Shown here: positions 1-46,031 of the stretch, piece by piece
Numbering within the stretch: the first letter of the stretch is position 1
Layout: every line of letters starts with the position of its first letter
The notes under the pieces: generated by a model
The model's input: only the letters and a program-made list of their open reading frames with translations
Databases searched by the model: none
Told to the model about the DNA's origin: nothing
Program-made: the position numbers and the translations under genes
Source: Propionivibrio limicola
Lineage (GTDB): Bacteria > Pseudomonadota > Gammaproteobacteria > Burkholderiales > Rhodocyclaceae
NCBI RefSeq assembly: GCF_009469695.1
Contig: NZ_SSSR01000023.1
Span: 1 to 46,031, forward strand
DNA length: 46,031 nucleotides
Direction: 5' to 3'

Positions 1-141
1 GCGCTGATCGCGCCGCCTTCCGGTCGGGCCTTCGCCCCTCCCTCTCGGCAACGCGATCAGCGCAAATGAAGTGTCCGGGGTGTGTCAGTTTTGAATCGCT
101 GCCCAACAAAAATCTGTATCAGTTTTGAATCGCCGTTGACA
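1..141. mobile_element. IS21-like element terminus (left copy, interior lies outside the window)
   Basis: This is the outer 141 bases of an insertion sequence whose body lies to the left of the window. The same 141 bases occur inverted at 45891-46031. The end reads TGTCAACGGCG on the complementary strand, starting at 141. Two direct copies of TCAGTTTTGAATCGC at 85-99 and 119-133 resemble the multiple terminal transposase-binding repeats of the IS21 family. Bases 1-12 and 52-63 (GCGCTGATCGCG and its complement) form a perfect 12-bp stem. The IS21 assignment rests on end structure only, because no istA/istB is inside the window. Confidence 0.7.
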
Positions 142-1574: not shown

Positions 1575-1613
1575 AAAAAGAAAAAGGCACCGAGGACGAG
1601 GTCCTGGGTGCCT
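1575..1613 (-). terminator. Ancestral terminator of the tRNA-Lys operon, now separated from it
   Basis: On the minus strand AGGCACC and AGGAC pair with GTCCT and GGTGCCT, with a CTC loop, followed by TTTTTCTTTTT. It lies directly downstream (minus sense) of the detached tRNA-Lys 3' half at 1623-1676. It was therefore most likely the original terminator of the tRNA-Lys genes before the 8.2-kb element was inserted between them. Confidence 0.75.
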
Positions 1614-1622
1614 AATTTCTTC

Positions 1623-1676
1623 AGAATTCGTGGTAGGGCGTGAGGGGATCGAACCTTCGACAAACGGATTAAGAGT
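1623..1676. repeat. attL: 54-bp direct repeat, detached 3' half of tRNA-Lys(CUU)
   Basis: All 54 bases match 9772-9825. The copy contains 8 bases beyond the tRNA 3' end (AGAATTCG), then, on the minus strand, the CCA end, T arm and variable loop back to the anticodon loop. Identity stops just past the anticodon loop, the usual crossover region for tyrosine recombinases that use tRNA genes. This marks the left border of the integrated element. Confidence 0.9.
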
Positions 1677-1807
1677 TCTTTCGGAAAGCTATTTTTGGCT
1701 CGCCAGCCTTTCAGAAAAACACTTGTTTTTCAAAGGCGTACCCTCTCTCGCAGTACATTAACTCGCCTTTTTCTCAGTACAGATGGCGTACAGATGTTGC
1801 ACGAAAA

Positions 1808-1821
1808 ACCAGAAATGGACC
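1808..1821 (+). repeat. Short recurrent motif ACCRGAAATGGACC, copy 1
   Basis: The sequence is ACCAGAAATGGACC, 131 bases inside attL. Copies in the same orientation lie at 6043-6056 and 9692-9705. It may be an accessory recombinase-binding or replication site of the element (inference). Confidence 0.45.
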
Positions 1822-1839
1822 GTAACCAGCGGGGGTGAT

Positions 1840-2409
1840 TCAGAATGCAACTTCCCACTGCCTCAGTTGGCCGACCGTCTCTGGAAGACCTTGCTGAAGC
1901 AGCGTATCTAGGTATTCGGCAGTAGTTTTCGGTGGGTTCTTGAGGGTGCGACGGTGCGCTGCAACAGCCGACAGCACTCGAGCAGTGTCGAGGTCGATTA
2001 GATCGGAGATGAACTCGTCCGGGTGGAGCGCTTCGACCTCATATTTGCTCAACTCTTCTTTCGGAAAATCCTTCAGGTTAAACGTCAGAATAACGCTCGA
2101 CTGACTACGTATCGCTGTCGCGAGTACGTGTCGATCATCCTCATCCGGCAGTTGCAGCGAAGGGATCAAGTACTCGTAGCCTCTGACCAGACAATCACGA
2201 ACGCTGGCGTCCATAAGCTGACGGGTACGCTCCAGCCGCTCCCTAGTCAGGTCCTCCCGAGATTTCAGTACATTCCGCATCCATTCTTCGTGGATGCGAG
2301 CCGACCACTTGGCTCGGTACAGGTCCGTCAGTGCCAAGTGCATCAGCAAGTCTCGCAGTGGTGCCGGATACAGCACACACGCGTCGTACACCACTGAGAA
2401 GCTGGTCAT
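1840..2409 (-). CDS. PIN-domain toxin (VapC-like ribonuclease)
   Basis: A 189-residue protein predicted to be the RNase toxin of a type II toxin-antitoxin pair. The N-terminus has a hydrophobic strand ending in Asp9 (VVYDACVLYP), followed by Glu41/Glu42 and the acidic cluster PDEDDRH around residues 89-94. ILTFNLKDFP at 107-116 is a typical PIN-domain C-terminal signature. These acidic residues would bind the catalytic metal. Its ATG overlaps the stop of the upstream antitoxin gene in an ATGA junction (2406-2409), so the two are translationally coupled and the antitoxin is made first. A C-terminal extension of about 60 residues beyond the PIN core is unassigned. It is likely maintenance cargo of the tRNA-Lys element. 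Confidence 0.8.
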   Translation of the reverse strand: MTSFSVVYDACVLYPAPLRDLLMHLALTDLYRAKWSARIHEEWMRNVLKSREDLTRERLERTRQLMDASVRDCLVRGYEYLIPSLQLPDEDDRHVLATAIRSQSSVILTFNLKDFPKEELSKYEVEALHPDEFISDLIDLDTARVLSAVAAHRRTLKNPPKTTAEYLDTLLQQGLPETVGQLRQWEVAF

Positions 2410-2870
2410 TCGTAGTAGCCCATATTCAGTTCTTGTGCCTCCGCTGCGAGAGCTTCCAGCGCTTTATTACGTTCGCCATCGATTCGTGCCTTGTATTCCA
2501 CCAAATCGCGGTAGTAGACGCGGCGATGGCTGCCGACCTTGTGGTACGGCATATCACCCGTGTCGAGTAGCTTGACCAGATAAGGGCGGGATACGTTGAG
2601 CATGTCGGCCGCTTCCTGCGTCGTCAGTTCAGCATGAACCGGGATCATGCTGACAGCGTTACCCTGTGCCATTTCGGACAGAATATCGATGAGCAGCCTG
2701 AATGCAGCAGTCGGCACCTTGATAGCCTCATGCTCACCGGCTTGGTCGATCACCCGGATCGACTGAGATTCTTCCTTCGTGCTTAGGTATAGAGAGAGTA
2801 GGCGGCTACTCTCTCTCGCCATCGACGCTTCTGCGTTGGTGGGTAGTTCGGTCTTCACCTTCGTGTTCAT
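2406..2870 (-). CDS. HTH (excisionase-family) DNA-binding protein, probable antitoxin
   Basis: A 154-residue protein with a MerR/excisionase-type helix-turn-helix at about residues 82-128 (ELTTQEAADMLNVSRPYLVK, then DMPYHKVGSHRRVYYRDL). The N-terminal 80 residues have no recognised domain. An AGGTGA ribosome site lies a few bases before the ATG at 2870. Its position directly upstream of, and overlapping, the PIN gene makes it the probable antitoxin and autoregulator. This domain type also occurs in recombination directionality factors, so a second role in excision of the element cannot be excluded. The unusually long N-terminal part argues for the antitoxin role. Confidence 0.75.
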   Translation of the reverse strand: MNTKVKTELPTNAEASMARESSRLLSLYLSTKEESQSIRVIDQAGEHEAIKVPTAAFRLLIDILSEMAQGNAVSMIPVHAELTTQEAADMLNVSRPYLVKLLDTGDMPYHKVGSHRRVYYRDLVEYKARIDGERNKALEALAAEAQELNMGYYE

Positions 2871-3026
2871 GGTTTCACCTGCCTGTGTCAGTCGTCTAAT
2901 TATCTGTACGTTGTCGTCGTGTCTAAGCTTTAGTAGCTGTCGAATTTGTTACGTGTAGGGAAGGGGTAGACAGTGTACTTAAACGAAATATCCGAAACAA
3001 GCGAAATAATCGAATTGTTTTCGGTC

Positions 3027-3265
3027 TGGTCAACCTCATTGGAATTGCACTTGCCGGCGAGGAGTCATGACCCTCCTCCATGAAACGAAAAATCCAGAGG
3101 TAGCGAGCCCCGTATCTCCTTCGCCTTCCTAGAAGGCGAAGCACGATCGATGACCGGTGGTGTCAATTCATTGATTCTATCTACCCCTTTGGAGTAATTG
3201 ACACCACCTGCCAGCCCGCATGGATGCGCTGCTAATGTGAGCCTACCAAAAAGCGATCAACTTCC
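3027..3265. repeat. 240-bp element repeat, left copy (contains a polymerase 3'-end relic)
   Basis: An imperfect direct repeat of 6171-6413. Similarity is highest over 3137-3265, where only a few bases differ. It ends abruptly at the codons matching the polymerase C-terminus, after which the copies diverge completely. It includes the 13-bp dyad at 3156-3208. Confidence 0.85.
3156..3208. repeat. 13-bp perfect dyad GGTGGTGTCAATT, left copy
   Basis: GGTGGTGTCAATT at 3156-3168 is exactly complementary to AATTGACACCACC at 3196-3208, across a 27-base spacer. Both arms and nearly all of the spacer are conserved in the second copy at 6304-6356. There is no T-tract, so it is not an ordinary terminator. 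A protein-binding or origin role is possible. Confidence 0.7.
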
Positions 3266-3575
3266 TAGCAACGCTAGTTCAAGTCGTACAGTGTTGGGAG
3301 CGCGAGGATTTGGTTCGCCGTCGGTACTCTTGCGATCTACTCCGGAGAGTCGTAGGTCACGGTATTGCGCAAGACCAAAGACCCGCATGAGATAATTTCT
3401 ACGTCATTCATAGACCTTGGGAGTGAACAAGTGCTGATCCGAAAATTCGAGCATCAGCAAATCAATGGGTTGCATTTATGCATAATTAACTCCAAGTTCC
3501 GACTGGCCAATATAAATTGTTATGTTACCCCAGCATTCTCGCAAACACTGTTAGGCAAGCAATAGGGCTTTCAAA

Positions 3576-3965
3576 ATGAAGATTAACAAGACACCCAAGG
3601 CTTTTTTCACCGAACTCACAATGGGCTCAGAGCGTTACGAGTGTGATTCTATGTCTGGTAAATTGCGTGTAAAAGGGGAGTATGGAATAGGATTATGGCT
3701 ACGTAAAGATCAACAGCCGCCGTATAAATCCACACTACTTTTCCAAGTAAACCAGCAATTTCAAGAAGTATTTGTACAGCTTTCTGACAAAAAGTACAGC
3801 CTTGAGCATGAAAGCGAAGGGCATAGTGCATACTTGGTGATGGACTCCTGCCCGAGTGTTAAAGAATTCATCGAAACAGCTCTTGAAGCTCTTGCTGTCC
3901 TTGATAAGGCGGTGATGATAAGAAGAATGGCGATTTCTTGCGACACTTCGAGCAGTGAGGATTAA
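3576..3965 (+). CDS. Hypothetical protein, orphan cargo gene
   Basis: A 129-residue frame from ATG at 3576 to TAA. I do not recognise a family. The protein is soluble-looking and mixed in charge, with no signal peptide or membrane segment, a helical C-terminal third (CPSVKEFIETALEALAVLDK) and an acidic serine-rich tail (CDTSSSED). The gene is clearly more AT-rich than the surrounding chromosome, suggesting a different origin. It is the only plus-strand gene of the element apart from the transposase. No strong Shine-Dalgarno is seen; AGGG lies about 9 bases upstream. A 16-bp perfect hairpin follows the stop. It could be a defence or anti-defence accessory gene, but nothing in the sequence shows that. 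Confidence 0.6.
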   Translation: MKINKTPKAFFTELTMGSERYECDSMSGKLRVKGEYGIGLWLRKDQQPPYKSTLLFQVNQQFQEVFVQLSDKKYSLEHESEGHSAYLVMDSCPSVKEFIETALEALAVLDKAVMIRRMAISCDTSSSED

Positions 3966-3975
3966 TCCTGTAGTC

Positions 3976-4016
3976 CACAGAGGCGCTGCGCAAAATAGAA
4001 GCGCAGCGCCTCTGTG
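3976..4016. repeat. Perfect 16-bp inverted repeat after the orphan gene
   Basis: CACAGAGGCGCTGCGC (3976-3991) and its exact complement (4001-4016) surround a 9-base AT-rich loop. There is no T-run, so it is either a bidirectional transcription block between the convergent orphan and UDG-like genes or a structured element boundary. Confidence 0.7.
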
Positions 4017-4129
4017 CTGTGCTTGGACGTTGAAGGTCCGCTTTCGAAAATCCTGACCGTCGCCTTCGGGGCGTGACCTGTCGAAAAGCGACGCTTGACC
4101 TCTGCTCAAAACAATGGCTGCTTCACCGC

Positions 4130-4336
4130 TTAGCGGACTGAATCCTTCGATTTAAGGGCTACGTATCGATCAATAAAATCGACGAATACCTGTTTGCCAT
4201 TCCTGCCGCCATACTTCTTCGTAACCCGATTCCACCACGGCATGCCAGGGTGTGGAGCGTGCTCATAAAGGATATTTTGCCCCTTCAGGAACGTCTTTAC
4301 TCCTGAACTGCTAGCGCATCGATACGCGAGAGAACT
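4130..4336 (-). pseudogene. UDG-like protein, C-terminal part separated by the IS insertion
   Basis: The last 68 codons and stop of the gene whose 5' part is at 5372-5893. Removing the IS (4345-5371) and one 8-bp target copy joins the two parts in frame: the codon for Cys174 is followed directly by SSLAYRC. This part carries HPGMPWWNR at reconstructed residues 203-211, which resembles the HP-containing C-terminal motif of uracil-DNA-glycosylase superfamily proteins. It has no start of its own and is presumably untranslated now. Confidence 0.75.
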
Positions 4337-4344
4337 GCAGAAAA

Positions 4345-5371
4345 GGCGTTGTTGCATAAAAGCCGAATCCTGTAGTCTGACGAGATGAACAAACCGCCGA
4401 GAGCAAAGTACAAGACGCAGAACTGGAAGGCCTACAACGCGGCGTTGAAGAGACGCGGCGGGCTGATGATCTGGTTGGACAAAAATTTGAAATGGCAGGC
4501 GAACCCGAACGGTAAGCCGGGTCGTCCGGCGATCTTCAGCGAGGGGGCCATCCAGTTCTGTCTGACGATCAAAACCCTGTTCGGTCTGGCGTTGAGGCAA
4601 TCGATAGGCTTCGTTGAAAGCCTGCTCAAGCTGGCGGGTTTGGATTGGCAAGTACCCGATTTCAGCACCGTGTGCCGGCGACAAAAACGTCTTGTCGTCG
4701 AGATTCCTGCCCGGGTCAATCCCGCAGGGCTGCACCTTCTGGTTGATAGCACGGGCATCAAGATCATGGGCGAAGGCGAGTGGAAAACGAAGAAGCACGG
4801 TGCGGAGTATCGCCGCCAGTGGCGGAAGGTGCATCTGGGCATCGACGCCGACACACTGGAAATTCGGGCGATTGAAGTCACCGGTAGCAAAGTCGGGGAC
4901 GCCGAAATGCTCCCAGAGCTGCTCGATCAGATTCCGCAGAACGAGCCCTTGCTCTCGGTGAGCGGGGACGGCATCTACGACACCAAGGTCTGCCATGAAG
5001 CGATTGCCGGACGGAAGGCGGTAGCGATTATTCCCACTCGGAAAAACGCCCGGCGTTGGAAAGAGACCGGCCCTGGCGCTCGGGCGCGCAACGAGATTCT
5101 ACGGACGACGCAGCGATTGGGGCGTTCAATCTGGAAGACGTGGAGCGGTTATCATCGACGCAGCCTCGTCGAAACCAAGATGAGGTGCTTCAAACTTCTC
5201 GGCGAACGGGTGATGGCGCGTGACTTTTATCGGCAGGTCGTCGAGTTACAGGTGCGTGCCGCTATTCTGAATCGGTTCACCTATCTTGGCACGCCGGACA
5301 CGGTGCGCGTGCCATAAATCCGTCCAGGGTTGGGGGAGGCTCAGCCTTGCGGCGATTTATGCAACAACGCC
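4345..5371 (+). mobile_element. IS5-family (IS903-group) insertion sequence, complete
   Basis: A 1,027-bp element with inverted ends beginning GGCGTTGTTGCATAAA at both termini (4345-4360 and complement of 5356-5371). It is flanked by an 8-bp target duplication GCAGAAAA at 4337-4344 and 5372-5379. It carries one intact transposase gene and interrupts the UDG-like gene. The exact duplication shows it arrived by simple transposition after the element was assembled. Confidence 0.93.
4385..5317 (+). CDS. IS5-family transposase (IS903 group)
   Basis: A 310-residue DDE transposase that cuts and joins the ends of the surrounding IS. The start NWKAYNAALKRRGGLMIWLD and the pattern HLLVDSTGIK, GEGEWK, VSGDGIYDT match the IS903 transposase layout. 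The predicted catalytic residues are Asp121, Asp195 and Glu263. Glu263 lies in a perfect Y-2-R-3-E-6-K signature (Tyr256, Arg259, Glu263, Lys270). The length is normal for the group and no frameshift is seen, so it should be active. The gene lies inside the IS, 40 bases from its left end. Confidence 0.95.
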   Translation: MNKPPRAKYKTQNWKAYNAALKRRGGLMIWLDKNLKWQANPNGKPGRPAIFSEGAIQFCLTIKTLFGLALRQSIGFVESLLKLAGLDWQVPDFSTVCRRQKRLVVEIPARVNPAGLHLLVDSTGIKIMGEGEWKTKKHGAEYRRQWRKVHLGIDADTLEIRAIEVTGSKVGDAEMLPELLDQIPQNEPLLSVSGDGIYDTKVCHEAIAGRKAVAIIPTRKNARRWKETGPGARARNEILRTTQRLGRSIWKTWSGYHRRSLVETKMRCFKLLGERVMARDFYRQVVELQVRAAILNRFTYLGTPDTVRVP

Positions 5372-5893
5372 GCAGAAAATAACTGCATCTGGACGGATCG
5401 CGCAGACAACTTCTCGGAAAACCTGGCTCGCCACAAGCGCATCCTGTTTGCTGACCTTGATGGATTTCCCGCTTATTTCTGCAGGCCGCTGGAAGTAGTT
5501 CATGAATGCCACTTCTGTAAAGGCATTGGTCGGGCAGGTGTAAAACAACCGGCTGGAACGTAAAGCGCTATCCATGTTTCGGTAGAGTACTGCCGATTTT
5601 TCGCGCCACTTGTTTTTGATCCCTTCGGCAATGATGGTGCGCGTCCAAAAACCTTTTGACTTAACTCCTTTTGAGTCATCTGTACCCACTCCGTCGTACC
5701 ACTTCTCTGGATCTCGGTGAAACTCAAATTGTTTCCCAACATAGTGGCTCTCAGCTACCAACAACACCTTGTGACTCTGGAGTGGGTAGCCCTTGCCAAT
5801 CCAAGGACGCATTTGATGATAGATTCCATAATGAGGAATCTTATCTAAAAATTGGTCGTATTCGAGAGTGAGAAAATCGGTATTAACGCTCAT
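5372..5893 (-). pseudogene. UDG-like superfamily protein, N-terminal part, disrupted by IS
   Basis: The first 174 codons of an originally 242-residue protein. I chose the ATG at 5893 (MSVNTDFLTLEYDQF) over upstream start codons because the conserved-looking sequence begins there. The core VLLVAESHYVGKQF near residue 43 and the segment FMNYFQRP, then PDAVIFC, resemble ESHY-type members of the uracil-DNA-glycosylase superfamily; the matching C-terminal motif is at 4130-4336. UDG-like genes are standard companions of primer-independent PolB in pipolins, possibly to deal with uracil in element DNA. Translation now runs about 5 codons into the IS and stops near 5357, so the C-terminal motif is lost. 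Confidence 0.65.
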
Positions 5894-6042
5894 ACAGCCA
5901 CCGTCAAGTTGAGATGTGATTGCACTATCGGTACAAGTTTTTTGTACTGCTCGATCGAATACGATTAGCATCAACAGTTTTTTGCAATGGGTCAAGAGTC
6001 GTGGTAGTCCTTGGTGCGCCTAGATCGTGACAAGACGCAAAG

Positions 6043-6056
6043 ACCGGAAATGGACC
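6043..6056 (+). repeat. Short recurrent motif ACCRGAAATGGACC, copy 2
   Basis: The sequence is ACCGGAAATGGACC, between the UDG-like gene and the polymerase gene, in the same orientation as the copies near both att sites. Confidence 0.45.
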
Positions 6057-6170
6057 AGACCAATGCACCCAAGTGCCACAGACCAACGGCTGTTAAGACC
6101 TACCCGCTGTCCGCGAGCAGGCGGTCTCTGAGCGTCGGCTCGACTCAGTTACCTATCGCAAAGCGACGCT

Positions 6171-6413
6171 TGGTCAATCTCGTTGGAATTGCGCTTACCG
6201 GCGCGGAGTCCTGAGCCCCCCCTTCCAGGAACTGAAAAATCCAAAGACAGCGAGCCCCCGTATTCCCTTATCTCTCCGAGAAGGCGAAGCACGATCGATG
6301 GCCGGTGGTGTCAATTCATTGATTCTATCTACCCCTTTGAAGTAATTGACACCACCTGCCAGGCCGCATGGATGCGCTGCTAATGTGAGACTACCAAAAA
6401 GCGATCAACTTCC
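6171..6413. repeat. 240-bp element repeat, right copy (overlaps polymerase 3' end)
   Basis: The partner of 3027-3265. Here it runs from the non-coding region into the last codons of the functional polymerase gene (stop at 6382-6380), so this is probably the parental copy. The two copies bracket the orphan and UDG-like genes, so recombination between them would delete that 3-kb module. Confidence 0.85.
6304..6356. repeat. 13-bp perfect dyad GGTGGTGTCAATT, right copy
   Basis: The arms at 6304-6316 and 6344-6356 are identical to those at 3156-3208, and the 27-base spacer differs at only one position. It lies 24 bases beyond the polymerase stop codon. Conservation of both arms and spacer suggests a function. 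Confidence 0.7.
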
Positions 6414-9400
6414 AGGCTCGGGAAACGCTCTTTCACAACCGAGAGAAACTTCGTCACTTCGGGAGTGGATGGAACGACGTGCTCGTAGAGTTGAGTTCGG
6501 CCTGCATTTTTCACATTGTAGGTCGCCGTCTTGTACCCTGCGGTGGTCAACCACTGTGCCAATCCAGCCTGGGATAGATCGACATCCTGCAAGCCCCATG
6601 CACGCTGCACGTAAGCCACAAGGAAGGTCCTGATGGCAATGCCGAGATATGGCTTGTCCCCTCGCGCATAAAGCATTCCAGTCACCCCGCGCGTGACGCG
6701 TGTAACGCTCGGTGTAGGCAGTACGGCGGCGCCTGTTCCCGATGGATTGGATGATTGCGCACCCTTTCGAAGTTGGCGCGTAACCGAAGATTGTTCTGGC
6801 TGCGCTAAATACTGTCGTACACGACGTCGATTGCCTGCGTATAGTCCTTGAAACGCCTGCCAATCGTTCCAGTCCTCCAAGGCCTTGAGGCAACGGGGTG
6901 GGGACCCTTCATCCCCCTTCTTGCCACGACGCCACTGGTCGAACAGAGTACGAACCAGCTCACCTTCCTCGGCGGATTCCCACGGAACCGTCCGGAAAGC
7001 GAGATGCTCAACGCCATGCGATTCGATTTTGACCATGCAAGGATCGACCGGCTTGCGCTTGAAATCGAATTCCATGTTCAATGTCATATCCCGGTCGAGC
7101 GTCTGCATATCCCAATCGTTGAGGAGAACGTCGCGCATCGACATCAGCGATGGCCGCTTGATCACCTGTCCCGGATAGCGGTCGACGAATAGATCCAAAA
7201 CGAACTTGTTCTGGTTAACAGGCTTCAGCAGCTCAAGTTCCTTGGCCTCGTCCCCTTCGGCCGAGTCCAGAAGGACCTTGATTCCGCCTTTTGCGACGAC
7301 TGGCTCCTGCCCCTCGACTGCTTTTCCCGTTAGCTGCAACCGGGTCTTGGCGGCAACCGCTTGCGCGATCAGGTGCTTGAGTTCGGTCATCGCGGTACCT
7401 GGCGCAACCCGATCGACCAAGGCTTGAAACCGCTGGCAAAGCGGGCCGGATAAGTTGAGCTTCTCTACATCTACCAGTAGCCCGTCAGTGGTCGCCGAAA
7501 CGACCAGCGTACCCTGCGGCAACTTCCAGAGAATTTCCCCCAGTACTGCACGGGCAAAGCCACTGGTCATCGCGGCTATAGCGGCTTCGGAGATCGCTGA
7601 CTTGCCGATTTTGACGGTGTCCATCTCCTTGGGGCTCATGCTGCGCTTTTCTTTGTACCCTTGCCCAGATTTGCCGTAGCAGGTGTTGCCAACGCCCTTC
7701 ATAAACTCGTTGGGTAGCGACTTCTTCTTGTACTTCAGCCGCTCTGTGCGGGTGTAAATCGAGAACGACTCGAAGGGGCGGTAACCAACATCGCCATGAG
7801 ATTCGGGAGGGAACTGCATTTCCGGGGCGGGGACGAGAACATCTCCGTCCCACTCCAGATCATTTTTTTTGGCCTTACCCACCTTCTTGCTACGCATGAT
7901 TTTCTGACTGCGTAGAAATACTTCTTCACGCGCCATCCACGGAATGACGACACCGAACTTGACCTTGACCTCTGCTCCCATCATCAGCGCGAGCTCAATT
8001 TCAGGCGCTGTCGCGATGGAAGTGCCGGAAAGCGGGAACCAGAGCCCATAATTTCCAACTATAACCGGCAGGCATGGGTATTCGGTGCTGGAGGGGAAAC
8101 TAAACTCTACCTGAGCAAATCCGGCAACGTGACCAACGAATGCTTGCGGGTCACGCACGATATTCATCCGCTCGTAATCAAGCGTCATTGCGCCAGCCAG
8201 GCTGACCACGTAGCAACCGGCCAGGTCATGGTCGTAGAGGCGGGAAGCTGGGCTCGCGATAGGGGTTGGGCCGAATCGATAGCATTCGTTTCGTCCGCCA
8301 ATGTAGGCATCGGCGAGGAATGCCTCCAGCCATTGTCGTAATTGTGTGGCTACGCGCTTCGTTTGGGAAAGAGGGCGATCATGGCGACCGCTCCACCGCC
8401 ATTCACGAACCTTGGTGAAATTCAGAGCCACATCGGGATGGATACCATCTTTACGCATGCAAAGCTGGGACAGCCGCACGCCAAGCCCGCTCAGCGTTGC
8501 GGACACACCCTTCAACCCCAGGCGACGATTGCAGAACCAGAGCACCCAAAGCACGTAGAGTACGGCAAGTTCGGCATCTCGCAAGCCGTAGGCCTTGAAG
8601 AAATCTGGCCGGTCACGCTGAAGCCTTGCCATGTCAGACTTCATGTACCCCTTCGGTAATGATAATTTTTCCAGACCCAACCATTCGCCGATCTTGTTTA
8701 GATTGGCCCCGGGGGGCGCAAGCCGAGCGGCATCAATCAGCCGAACCGAAATCAGCCGAGGATCGAAATTCTCACCGGCGATGAAGGAATACCGCGACTT
8801 GAGGCGATTGGCCTGGGCATCGCTAAGGGAGATTTTGAGTTCGGCGGGCCTGCCCACCGTTGCCAGAGAGCCATTGACCCCCTGCGTCTGGCGGATAAAG
8901 TTCTTGGCGTCGCGGAATATCGGTAGATCGGCCAGCGTGAAAAAACCACACAGGATGATTTCACAAGGCCATTCATCGAAGATGCAGTAGCTTTCCGCTT
9001 CGTCCAACATTTCGTTGAGTGCATCGGCGAGGCTCGGGCGGGCATCGAGACATTCACCATTTTCGACTTCGACGACCTTGTCGAGCCGTTCTCCGGTGGG
9101 GCCGACCATGTGAAATTGAACCGTTAACAAGCGGTTCCGCCCTTTTCGGTGATGCTGCCACTCCGCGTCAAAGCCGATGAAAACCGGCGCTCCCAGCCCA
9201 CGCAGGAGGTCCGGCTTGCCCCCCTTCATTGCTGCGGCTGTTGGCAGAGCTGCGGATATATCGACATGTCCTTGCCCCTGTCCGGCTAGAAACTCATCAC
9301 GTGCCCGAAGTTCTTCCTCGCTCGGTCCTGTCTTCATAAAGCCCGGCAGCCCAGCTTCACCAGAAGGGGGGCGGGGGGGCTGCTTAACCTTGGCCCCCTC

Positions 9401-9474
9401 CAGCAAAGGCTCGAAATGGGTACGCGCTTGGCGTGACGAAGAAGATCCGCGGCGGCTCGGAGAGAATCGGACAT
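6380..9474 (-). CDS. Family-B DNA polymerase with 3'-5' exonuclease, pipolin type (piPolB-like)
   Basis: A replicative-type polymerase of about 1,030 residues. Residue numbers here count from the first codon of the open frame (9736). The exonuclease domain shows Exo I FDAEW (189-193) and Exo III YGLRDAEL (383-390). The polymerase domain shows motif A YDHDLAGCY (501-509), motif B KGVGNTCYGK (680-689) and motif C as TTDG (749-752). All catalytic acids appear present. Roughly 230 C-terminal residues after position 890 match no domain I know. The frame is open back to 9736, but that part reads through a terminator and a dyad. The only start with a good ribosome site is ATG 9474 (MSDSLRAAADLLRHAKR), which is in a different frame and needs a -1 shift between 9474 and about 9350. 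The first in-frame ATG is at 9337. Primer independence is inferred from the element context. Confidence 0.8.
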
Positions 9475-9480
9475 GTGGTG

Positions 9481-9486
9481 TTCCTT
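9481..9486 (-). promoter_or_regulatory. Ribosome binding site supporting the polymerase start at 9474
   Basis: AAGGAA six bases before ATG 9474 (minus strand). It is the best Shine-Dalgarno in the region. It argues for MSDSLRAAADLL as the real N-terminus, even though that codon is out of frame with the rest of the polymerase. Confidence 0.6.
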
Positions 9487-9534
9487 GTTCGTGCGGTGCT
9501 GTTAGGAAGCGCGAGAAGGAATTTTTACATGCCG

Positions 9535-9579
9535 TCGTGACAGGTGGTGTCGTTTCGCTATCGAGCAAACCTGTCACGA
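9535..9579. promoter_or_regulatory. 11-bp perfect dyad upstream of the polymerase gene
   Basis: TCGTGACAGGT (9535-9545) is complementary to ACCTGTCACGA (9569-9579) with a 23-base spacer. It lies about 60 bases upstream of the likely polymerase start. The left arm overlaps CAGGTGGTGTC (9541-9551), an 11-base core that also occurs in both internal dyads of the element. It may be an operator or part of an origin (inference). Confidence 0.55.
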
Positions 9580-9691
9580 AAAGTGAAGAGCTCTTGCTTG
9601 TCGAGGGAGGTAGAGCTGCTTCGACTCTGTTCTTGCAATTGACGTCAAGCGCAGTCCTTGGATGGACGCGGATAAGCCTGACGTTGCTCGG

Positions 9692-9705
9692 ACCAGAAAT
9701 GGACC
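9692..9705 (+). repeat. Short recurrent motif ACCRGAAATGGACC, copy 3
   Basis: ACCAGAAATGGACC lies 66 bases inside attR. It sits in a local tandem in which GGACCAGAA occurs twice, 11 bases apart (9690-9709). The copy inside attL is identical over the 14 bases. Confidence 0.45.
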
Positions 9706-9720
9706 AGAAGCCGAATTTAG

Positions 9721-9751
9721 AAAACAAAAAAGCCAACCCGGGGGTTGGCTT
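9721..9751 (-). terminator. Element-supplied terminator for the tRNA-Lys operon
   Basis: On the minus strand AGCCAACC and GGTTGGCT form an 8-bp stem followed by TTTTTTG. It lies about 29 bases beyond the tRNA CCA end. It belongs to the inserted element and replaces the ancestral terminator now displaced to 1575-1613. Confidence 0.85.
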
Positions 9752-9771
9752 AAGTGCTTGTTACTACTGCA

Positions 9772-9825
9772 AGAATTCGTGGTAGGGCGTGAGGGGATCG
9801 AACCTTCGACAAACGGATTAAGAGT
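9772..9825. repeat. attR: 54-bp direct repeat within the intact tRNA-Lys(CUU)
   Basis: Identical to 1623-1676. It covers 8 bases beyond the tRNA and 46 bases from the CCA end to the anticodon loop. Because the intact tRNA remains on this side, integration preserved the host gene. Confidence 0.9.
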
Positions 9826-9855
9826 CCGCTGCTCTACCAACTGAGCTAACGCCCC
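9780..9855 (-). tRNA. tRNA-Lys (CUU)
   Basis: A 76-base cloverleaf on the minus strand with CCA encoded and anticodon loop CTCTTAA. The acceptor stem GGGGCGT pairs with ACGCCCT with one G-U. It is the distal gene of a two-tRNA-Lys operon and the integration target of the element. Confidence 0.96.
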
Positions 9856-9873
9856 GCAATTTCTGCTTTGCTT

Positions 9874-9949
9874 TGGTGGGTCGGGCGAGATTCGAACTCG
9901 CGACCAACGGATTAAAAGTCCGCTGCTCTACCGACTGAGCTACCGACCC
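9874..9949 (-). tRNA. tRNA-Lys (UUU)
   Basis: A 76-base cloverleaf on the minus strand with CCA encoded and anticodon loop CTTTTAA. The acceptor stem GGGTCGG pairs perfectly with CCGACCC. It lies 18 bases upstream of tRNA-Lys(CUU), with which it is surely co-transcribed. Confidence 0.97.
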
Positions 9950-15105: not shown

Positions 15106-15594
15106 TTAAAGCTGGCGGATTTTTTCCAGTAGCGCCGTCGTCGATTTCTGGTGGATGAACGGAATCGAAACGACTTTGCCGCCCCAGCCGGTGACTTCGC
15201 GGTTGCCGACGATTTTCTCGACCGGCCAATCGCCGCCCTTGACGAGAATGTCCGGCCGACATTCGAGGATGCGTTCGATTGGCGTGTTCTCGTCGAACCA
15301 GGTGACGAGCGAGACGCATTCGACGGCGGCCATCACCGCGAGGCGGTCGGCGAGGCTATTCACCGGTCGGTCGTCGCCCTTGCCGAGTCGTTTGACGGAG
15401 GCATCGGTATTGAGCGCGACGATCATTGACTGGCCAAGGGCGCGTGCCTGTGCGAGCAGGGTGACGTGGCCGCGATGCAGGATGTCGAAGCAGCCGTTGG
15501 TGAAGACGAGCGGGCGCGGTAGTGCCGCGAGGCGGTCGGCAAGATCGCCGGGGGCGACGATCTTGGATTCGAAGGCGGGGGGCGGGAAGTTCAT
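15106..15594 (-). CDS. rfaE2: D-glycero-beta-D-manno-heptose 1-phosphate adenylyltransferase
   Basis: Transfers AMP to heptose 1-phosphate in the ADP-heptose pathway for LPS inner core. The 162-residue protein corresponds to the C-terminal half of the bifunctional E. coli HldE; here the kinase half is a separate gene elsewhere, as in most Betaproteobacteria. The nucleotidyltransferase signature FTNGCFDILHRGH places HxGH at residues 40-43. The lysine-containing motif DILVKGGDWP and the ending STTALLEKIRQL are typical. It lies near diaA, whose family includes the first heptose-pathway enzyme. Confidence 0.93.
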   Translation of the reverse strand: MNFPPPAFESKIVAPGDLADRLAALPRPLVFTNGCFDILHRGHVTLLAQARALGQSMIVALNTDASVKRLGKGDDRPVNSLADRLAVMAAVECVSLVTWFDENTPIERILECRPDILVKGGDWPVEKIVGNREVTGWGGKVVSIPFIHQKSTTALLEKIRQL

Positions 15595-45890: not shown

Positions 45891-46031
45891 TGTCAACGGC
45901 GATTCAAAACTGATACAGATTTTTGTTGGGCAGCGATTCAAAACTGACACACCCCGGACACTTCATTTGCGCTGATCGCGTTGCCGAGAGGGAGGGGCGA
46001 AGGCCCGACCGGAAGGCGGCGCGATCAGCGC
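45891..46031. mobile_element. IS21-like element terminus (right copy, inverted relative to the left)
   Basis: The exact reverse complement of 1-141, beginning TGTCAACGGCG at 45891 and ending in the same 12-bp hairpin (45969-45980 with 46020-46031). The element's body lies outside the window. It breaks the DUF2339 gene. Both copies present the same terminus inwards, so the two IS elements are in opposite orientation. Confidence 0.75.

Follow-up and report, generated by a model that had tools for sequence, protein, structure and literature searches.

A decayed pipolin at a tRNA-Lys(CUU) gene of Propionivibrio limicola

What kind of element carries a family B DNA polymerase (PolB) at a tRNA-Lys gene of Propionivibrio limicola, how did it arrive there, and can it still move? 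The locus lies in contig NZ_SSSR01000023.1 (RefSeq assembly GCF_009469695.1), of which positions 1 to 46,031, here called the window, were analysed. Pipolins are elements that encode a primer-independent PolB (piPolB). When integrated, they have att-like direct repeats at their termini, often at a tRNA gene; a gene for a tyrosine recombinase is common in them, if not universal, and one for a uracil-DNA glycosylase (UDG) is frequent in those of E. coli. The initial annotation of the window, made from the letters alone, had proposed a compact relative of such elements with a giant polymerase and a UDG-like gene. We find that the element is a decayed member of the known pipolin superfamily, and we put at roughly three in four the probability that it entered the 3' half of tRNA-Lys(CUU) by site-specific recombination through a tyrosine recombinase and later lost its autonomy.

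A polymerase of the piPolB family

The identity of the element depends on its polymerase gene:
6380..9337, minus strand: piPolB body of 985 aa (open frame, 30-row tree, residues of alignment A4)

The full open frame occupies 6380-9736 on the minus strand (1118 aa) and opens at a TTG beside the tRNA terminator, and homologues can be aligned from window position 9415 onward. Counted from the ATG at 9337 the body has 985 aa, and the full-length piPolB-side rows of the tree have 866-1146 aa; 'giant' was therefore wrong, the body being of the usual size for the family. With residues numbered along this body, the columns which we take to be those of the exonuclease (D57, E59, D137, Y250 and D254), of motif A (D369 and D371) with the GG of YxGG (G347 and G348), of motif B (K547, N551, Y554 and G555) and of motif C (T617, D618 and G619) are invariant in 9/9 rows of alignment A4, in agreement with the PolB with exonuclease and motifs A, B and C that had been read by eye. 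The catalytic residues of PolB are thus kept, and motif C is without its first Asp. The same Asp is missing from piPolBs according to PMC7544198. No stop codon interrupts the body. Compared with its nearest homologue (L049), the three codon positions differ at 28, 20 and 62%, and 241/332 four-fold sites differ; third positions take most of the changes, so the protein has been under constraint since its split from the L049 homologue. Sequence comparison gave no usable match for the polymerase in Pfam, PHROGs, NCBIfam, PADLOC or PDB.

Phylogeny places the protein. In the 30-row tree, whose rows include no E. coli piPolB, 26 piPolB-side rows are split at 100/99 from phi29, PRD1, Pol II and RB69, and the window polymerase does not cluster with the protein-primed PolBs. 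On its side stand the piPolBs of two plasmids, pSE-12228-03 of S. epidermidis and pLME300 of L. fermentum; PMC9710591 lists both species among the hosts of pipolins. These homologues are 26 and 20% identical to that of the window, and both are carried on circular plasmids with relaxase genes, whereas the window element is integrated. Within the piPolB side, the window protein joins that of L049 (100/100), then G530 and L051 (100/100), then Vibrionaceae and the G925 family (100/99), so that one 100/99 clade holds the window polymerase together with Vibrionaceae and tRNA-Leu-associated pipolins. Many deep rows are long-branched and the deepest piPolB splits are not resolved; the placement of the window polymerase is independent of them. 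Judged by this placement, the polymerase is a relative of piPolB, which makes the element a pipolin, and the pipolin-like identity first proposed for it stands.

Such polymerases are rare and scattered. In a tblastn search of plasmids pSE-12228-03 was the best match (E 1e-32), with further matches including Fusobacterium and Pseudosulfitobacter; 50,697 phage records gave none. Viral contigs had no match to the window protein or to alignment A1, and three distant loci were found in them with alignment A3. Scanning genome contigs with alignment A2 gave 14 loci, of which the nearest, at 65% identity, is L049 (JAHAYH010000092.1, filed as a Caryophanon metagenome-assembled genome). Counting the own or centre genome in each case, piPolB occurs in 1/399 genomes in the order, 2/28 in the genus, 3/398 in the phylum, 5/246 in the G925 family and 7/248 in the G1040 family, and a distant DNA search of E. 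coli genomes with a Vibrio gene found nothing. tRNA-Leu(UAA) was present in 3 of 6 fetched stretches of the G925 family (L122, L125 and L126); the pipolins there lie beside this tRNA, have their piPolB in the same 100/99 clade as the window's and, unlike the window element, retain recombinase genes.

Some of these loci deserve mention in their own right. L049 is filed under Caryophanon (Bacillota) while its polymerase groups with proteobacterial ones, and the contig may be mis-binned. The 34-kb viral contig IMGVR_UViG_3300006674_000090 (L105, L106) has three long piPolB-like open reading frames (ORFs), and Pseudosulfitobacter plasmids (L010, 9518-15062) have a piPolB-like gene in two parts with IS66-type genes between them.

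Borders, arm-type sites and decay

The ends of the element and the candidate recombinase sites inside it are as follows:
1585..1613, minus strand: hairpin terminator, regarded as the original one downstream of tRNA-Lys(CUU) (read directly; same terminator and tRNA end in G1051, L075, and G1052, L076)
1623..1676, no strand: attL, the displaced 3' part of tRNA-Lys(CUU) (exact 54-nt repeat)
1808..1821, plus strand: left arm-type site ACCAGAAATGGACC (exact)
6043..6056, plus strand: inner copy of the arm-type site (one mismatch)
9692..9705, plus strand: right arm-type site (exact)
9772..9825, no strand: attR (exact 54-nt repeat)
9780..9855, minus strand: intact tRNA-Lys(CUU) (ARAGORN; Rfam 66 bits)

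The longest exact match between the element's ends is 54 nt (1623-1676 is identical to 9772-9825), enclosing about 8.1 kb. The right repeat lies inside the intact tRNA-Lys(CUU), next to which a second tRNA, tRNA-Lys(UUU), was found by ARAGORN at 9874-9949; the left repeat is only the 3' part of tRNA-Lys(CUU) plus 8 nt. The repeats and the choice of tRNA-Lys, not tRNA-Leu as in E. coli, had both been recognised correctly at the outset. Integrative pipolins of E. coli, as described in PMC7385651, are likewise bounded by att repeats at a tRNA, in their case Leu-tRNA. The left repeat can be traced in congeners: in G1051 and G1052 the terminator is followed by tRNA 3' sequence beside a phosphomannomutase-like gene, matching window 1575-1677 and 1548-1676, and since two congeners share the terminator and tRNA end, 1623-1676 is supported as the displaced native tRNA end. 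Of the congeners, G1051 also has the closest match to the left flank (95% over 142-812). There, tRNA-Lys(CUU) is followed by an intact tyrosine integrase gene (L087:2619-3770, Phage_integrase), and therefore by another element at the same tRNA. The tRNA-Lys pair was present in 10/10 congener or family loci scanned, from 29 fetched relatives' loci.

The tRNA-Lys(CUU) gene seems to be a hot spot. Beside it, G1051 and G451 (L087, L015) have integrases that belong to one family, a gene inside the other end of the G1051 element looks conjugation-like by eye, and G663 (L096) has phage-like genes, again by eye, at the same tRNA.

The motif ACCAGAAATGGACC has three sites in the element against a mean of 0.21 and a maximum of 2 in shuffled sequence. 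From their place and repetition we infer that these are candidate arm sites of a recombinase. The longer GGACCAGAAATGGACCAGA, allowing up to 2 mismatches, occurs in 2/28 genomes of the genus: at 9690 and 6041 in the own genome, and once, exactly, in G530. The latter genome has a pipolin (C117, about 33889-60664) whose piPolB is about 50% identical to the window's, with the same arm-type sites inside both ends. The exact 19-mer adjoins the 5' half of a tRNA-Ile gene, 94 nt away; the 3' half is about 26.7 kb off, with a two-mismatch site 104 nt inside it, and piPolB lies between. Counting against the arm-type sites are a two-mismatch match to ACCAGAAATGGACC outside the element, at 15139, and further matches with 1 or 2 mismatches in G530, at 46966 and 33762. 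Unlike the window element, the G530 pipolin is about 26.7 kb long, splits a tRNA-Ile gene and has two recombinase genes and, by eye, type I restriction-like genes. Also inside it (L102, 13615-13945; G530:C117:60114-60444) is a tRNA-Ile gene that carries about 245 nt of inserted sequence close to its anticodon, with a score of 32.6 bits for Rfam Intron_gpI, below the gathering score of 50.

Between the borders, several features point to decay:
3027..3265, minus strand: duplicate of the piPolB 3' end with adjoining DNA (88% to 6171-6413)
3263..3372, minus strand: tyrosine integrase gene, remnant (110 nt, 94.5% identical to L087:2998-3107)
4130..4344, minus strand: C-terminal piece of the 'UDG-like' gene (alignment with the last part of an intact plasmid protein, 33%)
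4345..5371, plus strand: insertion sequence with transposase 4385-5317 (DDE_Tnp_1_5, 142.7 bits; target duplication; inverted ends)
5372..5893, minus strand: N-terminal piece of the 'UDG-like' gene (36.5% to a Pseudomonas nitroreducens plasmid protein)
6171..6413, minus strand: reference copy of the 243-nt repeat, comprising the last piPolB codons and DNA beyond (self-comparison)

No recombinase gene was found between the repeats in the ORF list, with Pfam or by further comparison. What is left is the remnant at 3263-3372, whose match sits inside the G1051 integrase gene described above and which abuts the duplicate piPolB end. The gene first annotated as UDG-like is in two pieces; an insertion sequence lies between them, bounded by an 8-nt target duplication (4337-4344 and 5372-5379). 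We presume the insertion sequence to be of the IS5 family, the profiles showing DDE transposase domains only. Both pieces align along one 226-aa plasmid protein, at 38% and 33%. The name 'UDG-like' follows motif resemblance and is tentative. Pfam, PHROGs, PADLOC and NCBIfam gave no match for the N-terminal piece and PDB gave no relevant one, the 226-aa protein had no convincing Pfam match, and alignment of the gene with the protein at the matching place in L126 was unconvincing. The small ORF that precedes piPolB in L049, L050 and G530 was not found in the window, and L049, on whose contig no repeats or tRNA were found, differs further in having two recombinase genes. From the E. coli and tRNA-Leu pipolins, too, the window element is set apart by its tRNA-Lys(CUU), its lack of a recombinase gene, its 8.1 kb and its split 'UDG-like' gene. 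Taken together, the integrase remnant, the gene split by an insertion sequence, the duplicate piPolB end and an out-of-frame start indicate from sequence that the element is decayed, a better description than the 'compact relative' first suggested.

One pipolin or more than one

Entry by site-specific recombination would explain the identical att repeats, the restored tRNA and the same arm-type site inside both ends. An internal rearrangement would then have joined the second piPolB 3' end to the integrase remnant. The polymerase may start DNA synthesis without a primer, as reported for its family and as its phylogeny suggests, perhaps copying an excised circle. The element would no longer excise itself, but a recombinase might act on it in trans through the arm-type sites that it has in common with the larger pipolin of G530.

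Care must be taken with this account, as several observations weigh against it. An empty site, for which a search had been suggested in the initial annotation, was not found: no genome among the relatives' loci compared has both window flanks without the insert. The window departs from G1051 and G1052 to the left of 1548; in its right flank stands alaS, a place taken by a queC-like gene in most of the congeners scanned. The G+C content is 53.6% between the repeats, 62.6% in the right flank and 55.1% in the left flank, so that the left border, where the flank is about as G+C-poor as the element, is not marked by composition. An ATG at 9474 with the ribosome-binding site AAGGA is out of frame with the polymerase body; either the piPolB gene seems to be damaged in its 5' region or translation begins further in, for instance at the ATG at 9337, and an assembly error is a possible cause of the frame break. 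Finally, the second piPolB 3' end, the inner arm-type site and two copies of a palindrome (see below) hint at more than one element.

The last group of observations can be read as a collapsed tandem of two elements at tRNA-Lys, of which the right-hand one would be short and carry piPolB (about 6041-9771) and the other would lie to its left, with only the outer att sites surviving. The inner arm-type site at 6043 is about 320 nt past the piPolB stop, L051 has an arm-like site just past its own piPolB stop (at its 2117), the second piPolB 3' end is fused to an integrase piece, and an att-like stretch at 5993-6007, though weak, is the best place in the element besides the true copies. That stretch is only 16 nt, however, and 38/2000 shuffles score as high, so a middle att site is weakly suggested and was set aside; the same arm-type site at both outer ends is, moreover, what one element would have. 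We regard a collapsed tandem as possible, at odds well short of even. Alternatively, the pipolin may still be mobile, using a recombinase whose gene lies at another place in the genome or has diverged beyond recognition. Its att repeats and arm-type sites are intact, and plasmid pipolins have often lost the integrase according to PMC9710591, but the integrase remnant, the split gene and the out-of-frame start suggest decay and make continued mobility improbable. An ordinary protein-primed PolB, left behind by a phage or plasmid that replicated by protein priming, would also account for a mobile element whose B-family polymerase has exonuclease residues; this reading is very improbable given the tree, the phage records without a match and the piPolB-type motif C. 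The single pipolin that lost its autonomy remains our preferred reading.

A palindrome, other genes and wider meaning

Two copies of a palindrome lie in the element:
3159..3205, minus strand: palindrome GGTGTCAA-N-TTGACACC, copy 1 (pattern match, folding)
6307..6353, minus strand: palindrome GGTGTCAA-N-TTGACACC, copy 2 (pattern match, folding)

As single-stranded DNA both fold better than 200/200 shuffles, and they flank 3206-6306. Like the window, L049 has two copies with the same arms, one behind its first recombinase gene (3003-3049) and one over the piPolB ribosome-binding site and ATG (7113-7158); the segment that they enclose runs from the end of that recombinase gene up to the start codon of piPolB. 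Copies with these arms are also present in L057, upstream of piPolB (446-487), and in L010, within the piPolB coding sequence (9854-9898). In all, 6 exact copies were found in 4/37 pipolin stretches (526,840 bases), some of which come from one contig or from related plasmids, and none in 318 other proteobacterial genomes; in the own genome, which brings the total to 319, the palindrome occurs only in this element. Viral contigs had no exact palindrome with 10-nt arms. The palindrome is enriched in pipolins and not universal in them. Several points count against its significance: the pattern was defined after the window and L049 had been seen, a reversed control pattern occurs in 5/319 proteobacterial genomes, 33/37 stretches (including G530, L050, Vibrionaceae and the tRNA-Leu pipolins) and at least one pipolin carrier among the 318 genomes (G925) are without an exact copy, and the L010 copy, which lies in coding sequence, is imperfect in the homologue L048. 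Long loops, and the position of one copy over a ribosome-binding site and start codon, led us to set aside a simple terminator as an explanation. That GGTGTCAA-N(26 to 31)-TTGACACC is a cis-acting pipolin site across phyla, either a hairpin where copying starts through piPolB or a partner or a site of cargo exchange, is a conjecture that we doubt more than we believe.

Other perfect inverted repeats, with arms of 10-13 bp, loops of 22-32 nt and sequences that differ from those of the palindrome, are present in the pipolin stretches L045 (6824-6925), L009 (5442-5487), L054 (4289-4340) and L055 (476-527).

Three further genes lie between the left end and the insertion sequence:
1840..2409, minus strand: PIN-domain protein, likely toxin (Pfam PIN_3, 35.2 bits, cut-off 27; NCBIfam NF046100, 134.9 bits, below its cut-off of 170)
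2406..2870, minus strand: helix-turn-helix protein of excisionase type, likely antitoxin partner (HTH_17, 44.1 bits, cut-off 27; TIGR01764, 55.2 bits, cut-off 28.8)
3576..3965, plus strand: ORF of 129 aa (no family at E < 0.05 in Pfam, PHROGs or NCBIfam)

The first two genes overlap by 4 nt, and the pair may aid retention of the element. Outside the element, an identical sequence of 141 nt is found at both ends of the window (1-141 and 45891-46031) and at or near the ends of many contigs of the own genome; the contig therefore probably breaks in a repeated element.

In the openly licensed literature, whose coverage leaves out the founding 2017 paper and a 2024 survey, no pipolin in tRNA-Lys was found, and no priority is claimed. 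Through this locus the pipolins gain a clade that is firmly placed and inserts at tRNA-Lys and tRNA-Ile; the locus also shows a pipolin in decay while the body of its polymerase stays open. The candidate arm-type sites and the pipolin-linked palindrome offer handles on how pipolins move and on possible start points of piPolB.

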